Virus record (IMG/VR): IMGVR_UViG_3300021335_000033
Location: 1 to 40,707 of that record
Strand: one strand, 5' to 3'
Source of the DNA: a virus
DNA: 40,707 bases
Part shown: positions 8,243 to 15,020 of the stretch, piece after piece
Numbering within the stretch: position 1 is the stretch's first letter
How the letters are laid out: every line of letters begins with the position of its first letter
The notes under the pieces: generated by a model
The model's input: only the letters and a program-made list of their open reading frames with translations
Told to the model about the DNA's origin: nothing
Databases searched by the model: none
Position numbers and translations under genes: made by a program

Positions 8243-8467
8243 ATGTCCAAAGAATATAACGGTTATCCATCGTGGAACACATGGAATGTTAGCTTATGGC
8301 TAAACAACGATGAGACAATCTATAAGTTTTGTAAGGAAGCTTTAAAATTAAAAGGAAGAAGAAAGACTATTGACTTTCTTGTAGAGATGTTTCAAGACTG
8401 TAAAACGCCAGATGGCGCAAGATACAATCGTAGGTCTATAACTATAGCACTAGAGGATATGGAATAA
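8243..8467 (+). CDS. Early conserved small protein (WNTWNV-LWLNND motif)
   Basis: The best start is ATG 8243 behind GAGGGG, giving 74 residues; an upstream TTG (8174) lacks a ribosome site. The N-terminus reads NGYPSWNTWNVSLWLNNDE, a motif seen in many small phage proteins of unknown function. It is the first gene after the putative early promoter and overlaps the next ATG by one base (TAATG). A role in host takeover is inferred from position only. Confidence 0.75.
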   Translation: MSKEYNGYPSWNTWNVSLWLNNDETIYKFCKEALKLKGRRKTIDFLVEMFQDCKTPDGARYNRRSITIALEDME

Positions 8468-9060
8468 TGTCTAAACATAACATCCGCAAGATGTACAAGT
8501 ATGCACTAGCTAACTTGTCACAAGATGAAATAGTACAAGCCTCAGACTGGTATGGTGAAGCACAAAAAGAGGCAAGACAGATAGCAGAAAGACTAGATAT
8601 GCCTGTTTATATTGTTGTAGGTGTTATGGCTAGCCTTAGTCCTAACAACAAATGGGAAAGAAACTTAGTTGACGCTTATGAGCTATGCAAGGCTTTTCAA
8701 GACGGGCAAGGGATGGACACTGTAAAGGTGAGTACCTATCACAAGATGAAGCAAAAAGCATGGGGAATATTAAAAGAGTTTCCAGACTATGAGACAGTGA
8801 TAGTGCGACTGTCTGGAAAGAAGATTATTAGTTTCTTTCGTAATATTATGGGAGAAGACGATATAACTATTGACGGCCATGCTAGAAACATATACTACAA
8901 TGAGAGAGTAGGATTGACTCACGCTAAGACTGGTATAGGTATAAAAGAATATGCCAAGCTACAGAAAGAATATTTGACAGTAGCGAAAGAATATGATTTA
9001 CTAGGAAGACAGATGCAAGCCATCACTTGGGTTGCATGGAAGAAGAAACACAACATATAA
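8467..9060 (+). CDS. Early protein with HhH-GPD DNA glycosylase-like motifs
   Basis: This 197-residue protein belongs to a recurrent but uncharacterised marine phage family. It begins with a helical part (WYGEAQKEARQIAERL), then MASLSPNNKWERNLVDA (residues 54-70), which recalls the LSAQ-type segment of endonuclease III. LSGKKIISFF (115-124) and TIDGHARN (134-141) resemble the LPGVGRKTA and VDTHIFR segments. The spacing from Lys118 to Asp136 is 18, as between Lys120 and Asp138 of endonuclease III. A base-excision or DNA-nicking role is inferred; there is no FeS cluster motif at the C-terminus. Confidence 0.7.
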   Translation: MSKHNIRKMYKYALANLSQDEIVQASDWYGEAQKEARQIAERLDMPVYIVVGVMASLSPNNKWERNLVDAYELCKAFQDGQGMDTVKVSTYHKMKQKAWGILKEFPDYETVIVRLSGKKIISFFRNIMGEDDITIDGHARNIYYNERVGLTHAKTGIGIKEYAKLQKEYLTVAKEYDLLGRQMQAITWVAWKKKHNI

Positions 9061-9444: not shown

Positions 9445-10029
9445 ATGACAGCCACTAAATACGTAGCACTATTTGTAAGAAGTGATAGCGCATATAAAAC
9501 TACAACAGCTTGGGATGCATACGATGCAGACCGTAATGCACTAGGATATTCAGACAGTCTGCCAGTGGTATGTCATCCACCATGTAGAGCATGGGGCAAG
9601 CTATCTCACATGGCAAATCCAAGAGAGGGTGAAGCAGACCTAGCCTTGTGGTCTATTGATAAGATAAGGCAGAACGGTGGTATATTAGAGCACCCTAACG
9701 GTTCAAGGTTATTCGGTAAGCATTTACCAGACGTAGGAGAGACAGACGAATACGGTGGATTTACTATCATGGTAGACCAGTATGACTTCGGGCACGTAGC
9801 ACATAAGAAGACTAAGCTATACATATGCGGTATTGACAAGTCTGACCTGCCTATGCTACCACCAGAGGACAAGACACTACATTATTGTGAGAAGGGTAAG
9901 CTACGCTCTATCTGTGGCAATGTTAAGGGGACTACACGTTGCACTCAGTATCAGCGAGAATATACACCTGACGCACTAATAAAATACTTTGAAACAGTAC
10001 TAGATATAATCACAAGCAAGAAGGGATAA
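9445..10029 (+). CDS. Early protein resembling a cytosine-C5 methyltransferase fragment
   Basis: This 194-residue protein carries VVCHPPCRAWGKLSHM (about residues 41-56) and GGILEHPNGSRLF (about 78-90). The PPC and E-x-P elements in this order and spacing recall motifs IV and VI of C5 cytosine methyltransferases. The usual SAM-binding FxGxG motif is not evident at the N-terminus. Related proteins are common in phages and prophages without known function. It may modify DNA or bases, or be a degenerate relative. Confidence 0.65.
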   Translation: MTATKYVALFVRSDSAYKTTTAWDAYDADRNALGYSDSLPVVCHPPCRAWGKLSHMANPREGEADLALWSIDKIRQNGGILEHPNGSRLFGKHLPDVGETDEYGGFTIMVDQYDFGHVAHKKTKLYICGIDKSDLPMLPPEDKTLHYCEKGKLRSICGNVKGTTRCTQYQREYTPDALIKYFETVLDIITSKKG

Positions 10030-11514: not shown

Positions 11515-12312
11515 TTGGATGTAACTTTAGAAACAGACGATGACCTATTTGAGCACCAGCTTGAGCTAGAGACAGAGATGCTAACAGGTGGTATCCAACG
11601 GTTCAGAAGGGCAAGAGACAGGTCAGTAGACAAGGGCATGGAATCTAACACGTCTCATGGTAGAGCCATAGTATCAAGAGTGGTAGGCACAGTAGCAGAA
11701 GGATTAAAAGAGTACCTATCACACCCAAGTAATCCATCAAGGGACATCACCTTCAAGCGTGTGCGAGAGATGGATGCAGAACAAGTAGCCTATCTATCAG
11801 TGGTGACACTAGTAGACAGTATCAGTAGAAAGAATACCCTGCTCTATGTAGCCCGTACTATTGGTGCTAACATAGAGATACAGGACAGACTAGACAGGTG
11901 GATACACAGCGAGGGAGACATAGCACGTAACACTATCAAGCAAGCAATGAAGAAGGCCTATGGTGCTAGACGCTATGGACTTACTAACAAGATGAACAAG
12001 GACGGATACAAGGACACTGAATGGGAGAAGTCAGAGCGTGTGCATGTAGGATTTAAGATGGTAGACATCATCATACAGACTACAGGTATCATCAAGCTAG
12101 ACACTCAACAGACTGAACGCAAGCGAAGGGCTACCTATGTAGTACCTAGTGAGGAGACAGTCGAGTGGATTGCAGCTTTCAATCAGTACATAGAAACATC
12201 AAGGCCACGCTACCTACCCTGTGTGATACCACCCAAGAGGTGGACCAGTATCAAGGGTGGTGGGTATCATGGACATGACATAGATGAACTACCTATAGTG
12301 AGGCGCAAATGA
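11515..12312 (+). CDS. T7-type RNA polymerase, N-terminal part (split gene)
   Basis: The start is TTG 11515, eight bases after AGGGGG; no ATG or GTG is available upstream. The 265 residues align with roughly residues 40-300 of T7 RNA polymerase, covering the N-terminal domain, including SERVHVGFKMVDIIIQTTGI (T7: SIHVGVRCIEMLIESTGM) and PPKRWTSIKGGGYHG (T7: PPKPWTGITGGGYWA). The frame ends at TGA 12310-12312. The rest of the polymerase is in the -1 frame starting at ATG 12309. The two parts total 813 residues against 883 in T7. Confidence 0.88.
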   Translation: MDVTLETDDDLFEHQLELETEMLTGGIQRFRRARDRSVDKGMESNTSHGRAIVSRVVGTVAEGLKEYLSHPSNPSRDITFKRVREMDAEQVAYLSVVTLVDSISRKNTLLYVARTIGANIEIQDRLDRWIHSEGDIARNTIKQAMKKAYGARRYGLTNKMNKDGYKDTEWEKSERVHVGFKMVDIIIQTTGIIKLDTQQTERKRRATYVVPSEETVEWIAAFNQYIETSRPRYLPCVIPPKRWTSIKGGGYHGHDIDELPIVRRK

Positions 12313-13955
12313 GTTTGAAGGTACACTTAAACAGACTATCAGACCAAGACTTAACACAAGAGTATGCCTGTCTCAACACACTACAGGACACTGAATGGCG
12401 TATCAATAGCAACGTACTGACAGTACTACGTCAGCTATGGGACAACGGACAGGAGTGGGGTAAGCTACCAGCAAGAGAGGACACACCACTACCAGTCTAC
12501 CCATTCAGTAAAGACCCGAAGGACATGAACGAAGAGGAGAAGCAGGAGTTTAGAACATGGTCACGTAAGCGTAACAACATCTACTCACAGAACAATCGGA
12601 CCATCAGTAAGAGGATACAGGTAGAGCGTACACTTAACATAGCTGAACAGTATGCAGGATATGACAGGTTCTATTACGTATGGCAGAATGACTTTCGTTC
12701 ACGTAAGTATGCAAGCAGTACATTCCTGTCACCTCAATCTGCTGACTGGTCCAAGTCACTACTAGAGTTTGGCTATCCCATGCCTATCAATAATTGGGAT
12801 GATGCTAGGTGGTTGTGTATTCATGGTGCTAACCTGTATGGTAACGACAAGGTATCACTAAATGACAGAGAGACATGGGCTTGGGACTTTGCAGATGAGG
12901 CACAGAGGATTGCTGATAACCCATACGACAATCAAGTATGGCTGGAAGCAGACAAGCCTTATCAATTCTTAGGCTGGTGTTACGAGATGGCAGGGCTGGT
13001 CAGACAGGGGTGGGGATTTGAGACACGACTACCCTGTGCTGCCGATGGTTCATGTAATGGACTACAACACCTGTCTGCTATCCTCAAGGACCAAGCAGGT
13101 GGGCTAGCTACTAACCTAGTACCTAGTAACCTACCTCAGGACATCTACTGGCAGGTAGCAGAGGCCGCAACAGCCAGCGTTAGGGCAGAGGATACTGAGC
13201 TAGCACGTAAATGCCTAGAGTTTGGTATTGATAGGAAGCTAACCAAGCGTCCTGTTATGATTGTACCCTACTCAGGTACGAGACACTCATGCAGAACCTA
13301 CATACAGGAAGCAATAGGTGATAGGATTAAAGAGGGTGCAATCAATCCCTTTGGTGATGACTTGTTTGAGGTTAGCAATTACTTAGCAGGTCATGTGTGG
13401 AACGCTATCAGTGAGGTGATTGTATCAGCACGTAAGGTGATGGATTACGTTAAGACTGTAGCAGATGTGTATGCTGAGAGAGGACAGCACATGGAATGGG
13501 TTACACCTACAGGCTGGATAGTCTTACAGCAGTACAGTGAGACACAACAGAAGCGTATCAAGACACACATCAATGGCGAGGTAGTATCACTATCCTTTCC
13601 TAAGGACAAGGAAGACTCAGTGAACAGGCGAAGGACAGGGCTAGGTGCATCACCTAACTTTATCCACAGCCTAGATGCTGCGGCAATGACCAAGACTATT
13701 AACAAAGCCTACAAGCTAGGCATCCATGACTATGCAATGGTACATGATAGCTACGGTACACACAGTAGCATGATGCCCCTGATGTCAGAGGTACTACGAG
13801 AAGAGTTTGTTAATATGTATGAAGAGAATGATGTCTTGACACAGTTGAGACAACATGCTATCACTACACTAGGGACTCAGGATGTACCTGAACCACCTGC
13901 TAGTGGTAGCCTAAACCTACGTGACGTTTTGAAATCAGATTATTTCTTTGCATGA
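12309..13955 (+). CDS. T7-type RNA polymerase, C-terminal catalytic part (split gene)
   Basis: ATG 12309 overlaps the stop of the first part (ATGA) and has GAGG five bases upstream, so translation could restart. The 548 residues hold the catalytic palm and fingers: Asp246 in AADGSCNGLQH (motif A), Lys313 and Tyr321 in LTKRPVMIVPY (motif B), Asp480 in MVHDSYGT (motif C), and a terminal YFFA like the T7 FAFA end. Catalytic residues are intact. Two conserved glycines differ: DxxGR is DFRSR (128-132), and YG after motif B is YS. It would transcribe the middle and late genes. Confidence 0.93.
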   Translation: MSLKVHLNRLSDQDLTQEYACLNTLQDTEWRINSNVLTVLRQLWDNGQEWGKLPAREDTPLPVYPFSKDPKDMNEEEKQEFRTWSRKRNNIYSQNNRTISKRIQVERTLNIAEQYAGYDRFYYVWQNDFRSRKYASSTFLSPQSADWSKSLLEFGYPMPINNWDDARWLCIHGANLYGNDKVSLNDRETWAWDFADEAQRIADNPYDNQVWLEADKPYQFLGWCYEMAGLVRQGWGFETRLPCAADGSCNGLQHLSAILKDQAGGLATNLVPSNLPQDIYWQVAEAATASVRAEDTELARKCLEFGIDRKLTKRPVMIVPYSGTRHSCRTYIQEAIGDRIKEGAINPFGDDLFEVSNYLAGHVWNAISEVIVSARKVMDYVKTVADVYAERGQHMEWVTPTGWIVLQQYSETQQKRIKTHINGEVVSLSFPKDKEDSVNRRRTGLGASPNFIHSLDAAAMTKTINKAYKLGIHDYAMVHDSYGTHSSMMPLMSEVLREEFVNMYEENDVLTQLRQHAITTLGTQDVPEPPASGSLNLRDVLKSDYFFA

Positions 13956-14011: not shown

Positions 14012-14668
14012 ATGCCAAACATTAAACTAGAAGGTACAGTTGAGTGGGCTAAAGTACATGAGCCTGACACTAAGTTTGTTAAACCACATGGTGAATACTC
14101 AGCTAACATCATCATGTCAGAAGCAGAAGCAACAGTACTATGTGAACAGTTAGAAGTACTAGCTAAACAGAAGCTAGAACAGACTGTCAAGGAAGCACCA
14201 GAGAACAAGCGTAATGCTCTACGTGCTAGCCTGTCCATTGCGACTAACAACAAGGAACACTACGACAGGGACGGTAATCCTACAGGTAATATGTTCTTCA
14301 AGACCAAGCTGGCAGCAGTACGTAAGAAGGATGGGGTAGATGTACGCCAACGTCCTATGGTACTGGATGCTAAGAAACAACCCATTGACCCTAGCATCTT
14401 GATTGGTAATGGCTCTGTAGTAAAGGCAATCATTGACCCTTACCCATACTACATGCCAAGCTCTAAGACAGTGGGTACATCACTACGACTAGTAGCCCTA
14501 CAGGTTATCAAGTTAGAAGAAGGTAGACCAACAGCTATGTCACTCTTGGATGAAGAGGATGGCTATGTTGCAGAAGCAGTAGCCAAAGACAACACTCAAG
14601 AGAGCAGTGCTATGGACATGCTGGATGATAACCTACCTACAGGAAGCTCAGATGAAGGGGACTTTTGA
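14012..14668 (+). CDS. Single-stranded DNA-binding protein (T7 gp2.5-like)
   Basis: A 218-residue protein. The beta-rich core (KLEGTVEWAKVHEPDTKF, then YSANIIMSEAEA) and the strongly acidic C-terminus (DDNLPTGSSDEGDF) match gp2.5-type SSBs, whose tail contacts DNA polymerase and helicase. It would coat single strands during replication and recombination. It has AAGGAG before ATG 14012 and follows a promoter-like motif. Its last 17 bases overlap the endonuclease gene, as T7 gene 2.5 lies near gene 3. Confidence 0.9.
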   Translation: MPNIKLEGTVEWAKVHEPDTKFVKPHGEYSANIIMSEAEATVLCEQLEVLAKQKLEQTVKEAPENKRNALRASLSIATNNKEHYDRDGNPTGNMFFKTKLAAVRKKDGVDVRQRPMVLDAKKQPIDPSILIGNGSVVKAIIDPYPYYMPSSKTVGTSLRLVALQVIKLEEGRPTAMSLLDEEDGYVAEAVAKDNTQESSAMDMLDDNLPTGSSDEGDF

Positions 14669-15020
14669 AGAGGCCGTTCTTTCTGATTTAGATGTACGTG
14701 ACATTTCATATGAGTATGAACCAAGTAAGTTACCATACTTTGTGGAACGTCACTACATCCCTGACCTAGCAGTAGGTGACATGATAGTAGAACTGAAGGG
14801 GTACTTCAGGCAGGATAGCCAGCGTAAGATGAAAGCTATCAAGGCACAGTACCCCGACATGGACATACGATTTGTATTCCAGAAGTCTAGTGCTACTATA
14901 CAGGGAGCTAAGAAAAGGAAAGACGGTAGTAAGATGACATGTGCTGAGTGGGCAGACCGTAATGGTTTCCATTGGGCAGAAGGAACTATACCTAAGGAGT
15001 GGTTAGATGAGTCTTATTGA
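14652..15020 (+). CDS. Endonuclease I, Holliday-junction resolvase (T7 gp3-like)
   Basis: ATG 14652, after AGGAAG, gives 122 residues (T7: 149). TFEEAVLSDL (residues 4-13) matches the start of the T7 fold with its catalytic Glu20. YEYEPSKLPY, IPDLAVGDM and VELKGYF supply the other acidic residues and lysine (Glu35, Asp55, Glu65, Lys67). It would resolve junctions and help degrade host DNA. ATG 14607 is an alternative start inside SSB but lacks homology before TFEE. Confidence 0.9.
   Translation: MKGTFEEAVLSDLDVRDISYEYEPSKLPYFVERHYIPDLAVGDMIVELKGYFRQDSQRKMKAIKAQYPDMDIRFVFQKSSATIQGAKKRKDGSKMTCAEWADRNGFHWAEGTIPKEWLDESY

Follow-up and report, generated by a model that had tools for sequence, protein, structure and literature searches.

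The closest described systems to the protein considered here are the archaeal and bacterial Ogg2 8-oxoguanine glycosylases/lyases, represented by MjOgg (PDB entries 3knt and 3fhf), T. maritima Ogg (3n0u) and SsOgg (3fhg). In MjOgg, Trp198 stacks on 8-oxoG, and Asp194 has its structural counterpart in OGG1 as Gln315, a residue that bonds to N1 of 8-oxoG (PMC3397491). The pairs of base-reading and base-stacking residues are Gln315/Phe319 in OGG1 and Asp218/Trp222 in AGOG, while the distinction between 8-oxoG and G in Ogg2 comes from a strictly conserved C-terminal Lys (PMC3397491). The window analysed here, which is the whole of a 40,707 bp IMG/VR virus record, encodes at 8467–9060 (+) a 197-amino-acid protein of the DUF7178/PHROG 3842 family, which is predicted, on the basis of Pfam, PHROG, AlphaFold2, Foldseek and a profile comparison, to be an OGG-like HhH-GPD DNA glycosylase/AP lyase. 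In its predicted overall fold and its length of about 200 amino acids the protein is like Ogg2, and in both there is no Fe–S cluster; an aligned Asp, a DxH motif and a Trp at the position of the stacking Trp are shared. DUF7178 differs from Ogg2 in that its hairpin is two residues shorter, a Gln replaces Asp194 and the C-terminal Lys sensor is not conserved; it also has a Trp28-Tyr29 pair and an LSP...W..N signature of its own, and is phage-borne.

The open reading frame, as well as the peptides LSGKKIISFF and TIDGHARN that the original prediction had quoted from it, is present as described. The translated protein matches DUF7178 in Pfam (E = 1.9e-35) and PHROG 3842 (E = 5e-51), both of which are families without an assigned function. 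The reading frame is real, and its dN/dS ratio among close relatives is about 0.05 (range 0.04–0.09), which points to strong purifying selection on the protein.

The AlphaFold2 model, which was built with 77 relatives, is all-helical (pLDDT 95.7, pTM 0.90), and the model and its Foldseek matches indicate the two-domain HhH-GPD fold; the helix formed by residues 118–127 is followed by a loop leading to Asp136, which lies immediately before a helix formed by residues 137–144. When the model was compared with the PDB using Foldseek, all of the best 50 matches were OGG-type HhH-GPD 8-oxoguanine glycosylases/lyases, the closest being archaeal/bacterial Ogg2 (MjOgg with a probability of 1.00, an E-value of 4.5e-3 and TM-scores of 0.56–0.59; T. 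maritima Ogg with a TM-score of 0.62), with SsOgg, human and mouse OGG1 and Pa-AGOG also among them. A search against endonuclease III, MutY and AlkA had been proposed as the check on the fold; the HhH-GPD class was recovered, but none of these three enzymes appeared among the best 50 matches. The relation is remote, as no PDB match fell below an E-value of 0.001 and the best TM-score was 0.62. Sequence searches of the PDB, for which either the protein alone or a 77-row profile was the query, gave no match. Comparison with OGG1 and AGOG, which was made by fold and from the literature, places the Gln184/Trp188 pair of DUF7178 at Gln315/Phe319 of OGG1 and at Asp218/Trp222 of AGOG; OGG1 contains an extra N-terminal A-domain, whereas DUF7178 does not. 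Among viral models, the fold is shared by S-CBP42 (TM-score of 0.90) and by many large phage proteins.

The DUF7178 profile was also aligned using hhalign with collected profiles of Ogg2, endonuclease III, MutY and AlkA, with 100 column shuffles as the null. The score with Ogg2 was 35.7, compared with a shuffled maximum of 23.2, and that with endonuclease III (a profile of the E. coli sequence and 22 genome sequences) was weaker at 27.2, compared with a shuffled maximum of 18.3; the scores with MutY and with AlkA, the latter a profile of only three sequences, were within the shuffled null. In 40 of 40 jackknifes, Phe123, Asn126, Asp136, His138, Gln184 and Trp188 were aligned with Phe134, Asn137, Asp147, His149, Asp194 and Trp198 of MjOgg, the query sequence of which is identical to PDB entry 3fhf over 207 residues. 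In 30 of 30 jackknifes with endonuclease III, Lys119 and Asp136 were aligned with its Lys120/Asp138 pair. The predicted structure, the fold search, the profile scores relative to their nulls and the residue invariance described below all support an HhH-GPD fold with a conserved Lys/Asp pair, as had been proposed.

Across 100 diverse relatives, some of which are near-duplicates, Trp28, Tyr29, Leu57, Ser58, Trp63, Asn66, Lys119, Phe123, Asp136, Gln184 and Trp188 are invariant. Trp28-Tyr29 (8548–8553, +) are candidate pocket or DNA-contact residues. The segment L57-S-P-N-N-K-W-E-R-N66 (8635–8664, +) probably corresponds in place to the LSAQ segment of endonuclease III, to which it had been likened; an L-S-x-x element is indeed found there, but the family has its own signature, L-S-P-x-x-x-W-x-x-N, in which the Leu, Ser, Trp and Asn are invariant and the Pro is found in 98 of the 100 relatives. 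In the model and the alignments, helix 108–115, a short turn and helix 118–127 form the putative helix–hairpin–helix (8788–8847, +), the hairpin of which is shorter than LPGVGRK; its turn retains Gly117 in 96 of 100 relatives, and the second Gly of G-x-G is missing.

The catalytic pair had been named as Lys118/Asp136. Asp136 (8872–8874, +), the proposed GPD aspartate, and a Lys are both invariant (100/100), and the fold obtained is not one unrelated to HhH-GPD, but the invariant Lys is Lys119 (8821–8823, +) and not Lys118: position 118 is Lys in only 14 of the 100 relatives, Pro in 43 and Gln in 26. In the alignment with Ogg2, Lys118 rather than Lys119 was placed on Lys129 in 34 of 40 jackknifes. 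Lys119, which is at the start of the second HhH helix, is provisionally taken as the catalytic, Schiff-base-forming lysine because the hairpin is shorter and Lys118 is not conserved. The spacing of 18 residues between Lys and Asp, which had been likened to that of endonuclease III, was therefore counted from the wrong Lys; from Lys119 the spacing is 17 in the window protein and in 48 of 100 relatives and is 18–21 in the rest, and it was rejected as a diagnostic feature on account of this variation across the 100 relatives. The argument from the residue pair itself stands, as the invariance of Lys119 and Asp136 goes beyond a chance likeness.

In the proposed base pocket, Gln184 (9016–9018, +) takes the place of MjOgg Asp194, the equivalent of the base-reading Gln315 of OGG1, and Trp188 (9028–9030, +) takes the place of the stacking Trp198. 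The last residue of DUF7178 is variable, being Lys in 14 of 76 complete relatives, and the C-terminal Lys of the Ogg2 type is thus not conserved. With Trp188 and Gln184 invariant and no such Lys, the pocket appears, as judged from sequence, to be of a type for guanine-like bases without the known 8-oxoG sensor. Trp28, Tyr29 and Trp63 are candidates for the residue that occupies the site of this lysine. Its absence directs attention to the base whose removal would benefit a phage.

The fold class, the invariance of Lys119, Asp136, Gln184 and Trp188, and the profile likeness to both Ogg2 and endonuclease III are computed results; the activity, substrate, timing and purpose that we infer are the following. 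DUF7178 is probably an OGG-like, phage-specific enzyme that is both a DNA glycosylase and an AP lyase; it would act early, and its target would most likely be guanine that is damaged or modified in the phage DNA entering the cell. The fold and the chemistry, taken by themselves, are assigned with good confidence, whereas 8-oxoG itself as the substrate is a tentative assignment that we consider possible but doubtful. DNA would be bound through the helix–hairpin–helix and the base would be flipped into the pocket, where Gln184 may read its edge and Trp188 may stack on it. Lys119, helped by Asp136, would then attack C1', the base would be released via a Schiff base, and this Schiff base could lead to a strand nick by β-elimination. 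The substrate is most likely to be an oxidized or otherwise modified guanine-type base, and the purpose is most likely to rid the entering phage genome of these bases before it is replicated. The aspects that are new here are the tested OGG-like, rather than endonuclease III-like, class, the correction of the catalytic lysine to Lys119, the correspondence of the base pocket and the lack of the sensor. Hundreds of marine and soil phages carry a DUF7178 gene, and an OGG-like label with named residues makes its function testable at the bench.

A further proposal, which we regard as rather unlikely, is that an OGG-type phage branch, the domain of which is also found in large multidomain phage proteins, has switched its target from 8-oxoguanine to a guanine that the host modifies. 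Such a mark might be a defence mark on phage DNA or a self mark of the host, and its excision, if this is true, would be counter-defence or selective attack. The possibility that the enzyme excises phage-DNA bases modified by a host defence system, or self marks made by the host, and not oxidized bases, is unlikely. It would agree with the restriction of the family to phages and its rarity in hosts, as well as with a guanine-type pocket that lacks the 8-oxoG sensor, but no direct evidence for it was found, and no link to a defence or counter-defence gene was noticed.

According to the original prediction, the protein was to be modelled on endonuclease III, as an early enzyme that could damage host DNA or excise the modified bases of competing phages. 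The superfamily chemistry is indeed the same, the Lys/Asp pair aligns with that of endonuclease III and the gene lies upstream of the RNA polymerase gene. However, the C-terminal [4Fe–4S] pattern of endonuclease III, C-x6-C-x2-C-x5-C, is found in none of the 76 complete relatives, the closest structural matches belong to the OGG type and Lys is conserved at position 119 rather than 118, so that endonuclease III is not retained as the model. Apart from the position of the gene, we found nothing in favour of an attack on the DNA of the host or on rival phages. The genes around DUF7178 are not conserved, and the window already has a T7-type endonuclease I gene (14607–15020). An attack on host DNA would require a self mark, but thymidylate synthase, ThyX and 5-hmdU kinase, which would protect the phage's own DNA, were not seen in a motif scan of the window; this absence is based on motif patterns together with domain searches that covered the main open reading frames. 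We consider this reading improbable.

The phage amino acid:DNA transferase ADDT has been described as glycosylase-like, and it is phage-borne like DUF7178. The protein might instead use a glycosylase-like scaffold to modify bases, comparable to the amino acid:DNA transferases found in phages that hypermodify thymidine. Phage enzymes of this kind are known (PF18724; M6 gp51), and the next-but-one gene downstream has a predicted fold like that of C5-cytosine methyltransferases. However, the profile score of DUF7178 with the PF18724-type ADDT was 11.3, compared with a shuffled mean of 14.2, and thus showed no profile similarity; in addition, both lyase residues are conserved, and the same motif scan of the window showed no homologues of 5-hmdU kinase or thymidylate synthase. 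A base-modifying role is therefore very unlikely, and hypermodification of the ADDT type was rejected on the profile score. A non-catalytic DNA-binding protein that keeps only the HhH-GPD scaffold, as might be suggested by the shortened hairpin and by HhH domains often being only DNA-binding, is highly improbable, as none of the 100 sequences departs from Lys119, Asp136 or the pocket residues, while the adjacent position 118 varies freely.

The same window encodes a T7-like terminase, RNA polymerase, endonuclease I, primase-helicase, DNA polymerase A and a B12-type ribonucleotide reductase. The DUF7178 gene is placed between the terminase and RNA polymerase genes, upstream of the T7-like RNA polymerase. 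The interval from terminase to RNA polymerase is the usual site of T7-type early genes, and this position suggests that the OGG-like protein would be expressed early; a search for sigma-70 promoters upstream of the gene showed no excess over shuffles. A 74-amino-acid DUF7249 reading frame lies upstream (8243–8467, +) and shares one base with the start of the DUF7178 gene, and the two are likely to be on one transcript. DUF7249 is not a conserved partner, being near DUF7178 in two of 89 loci, and PHROG 12600, the family of the next-but-one gene downstream, was near it in none of the 89, so that no conserved gene neighbourhood was found. A relative of the DUF7249 protein lies directly upstream in locus L182, and PHROG 12600 is present on three further contigs bearing DUF7178, outside the 89-locus count.

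The PHROG 12600 protein of the window (9445–10029, +) comprises 194 amino acids and has an unknown function and no Pfam match. Its predicted fold (pLDDT 88.9) gave C5-cytosine DNA methyltransferases as the listed PDB matches (M.HaeIII, 1dct, E = 9.7e-5, probability 1.00). Where the methyltransferases have PCQ and ENV it has invariant HPPC and EHP, and its N-terminal strand contains an invariant DS-Y-K rather than a clear SAM-binding glycine motif. The T7-like RNA polymerase is encoded as two overlapping reading frames (11515–12312 and 12309–13955, +) that match adjacent halves of PHROG 414. The same split is found in a relative (L046, 4218–5087 and 5089–6738, with 53% and 66% identity), which indicates that the split in the window is not a sequencing error. 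A split RNA polymerase is reminiscent of phage N4, in which RNA polymerase II has two subunits.

The recurrence of the family in phages with an unknown function, as originally stated, was borne out well beyond the window. Using tblastn, DUF7178 was found at below 60% identity in 138 phage records, including those of roseophages (SIO1 gp9), cyanophages, Anabaena phage A-4L, a Maribacter phage, phages of Mycobacterium, Gordonia, Streptomyces, Microbacterium and Rhodococcus, and others. In IMG/VR, 365 confirmed places were found in one scan and at least 568 in another, while scans started from single distant members gave few loci. Bacterial homologues are very rare: a pattern scan that covered 84,980 species genomes gave five places; the seed genome was alone in being positive among the 296 genomes of its phylum, and bacterial homologues were dropped as a guide to function because they are too rare. 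A literature search did not find DUF7178 by name. Some phage records already label members as glycosylase, DNA glycosylase or N-glycosylase/DNA lyase. Only DUF7178 matched the family members convincingly: Pfam HhH-GPD (PF00730) gave no match over the cut-off in the window, and NCBIfam gave a weak N-glycosylase/DNA lyase match for one member only (E = 0.16).

Several members differ in form or annotation. In cyanophage NATL2A-133 (L095, 5255–5623 and 5716–5877) DUF7178 is annotated as two reading frames and matches in two pieces, which suggests that it is frameshifted, decayed or split there. The homologue in Tunturiibacter phage Tunturi_3 (L094, 3956–4552) is publicly annotated as a portal protein, which appears to be a mis-annotation. 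BFVD matches place the fold inside other large phage proteins, some of which are named polyvalent; in the parts of the polyvalent-protein paper covered by a term search, no DNA glycosylase domain was found (PMC5512222). The genomes of the Microbacterium phages Cece and A3Wally (L083 and L096; roughly 190 kb) each have two places that match DUF7178, possibly representing a second copy, and a 2039-amino-acid protein of virus Rctr197k (L086, 671–6787) carries DUF7178 at least twice, alongside inorganic-pyrophosphatase-like and 2'-5' RNA ligase domains.
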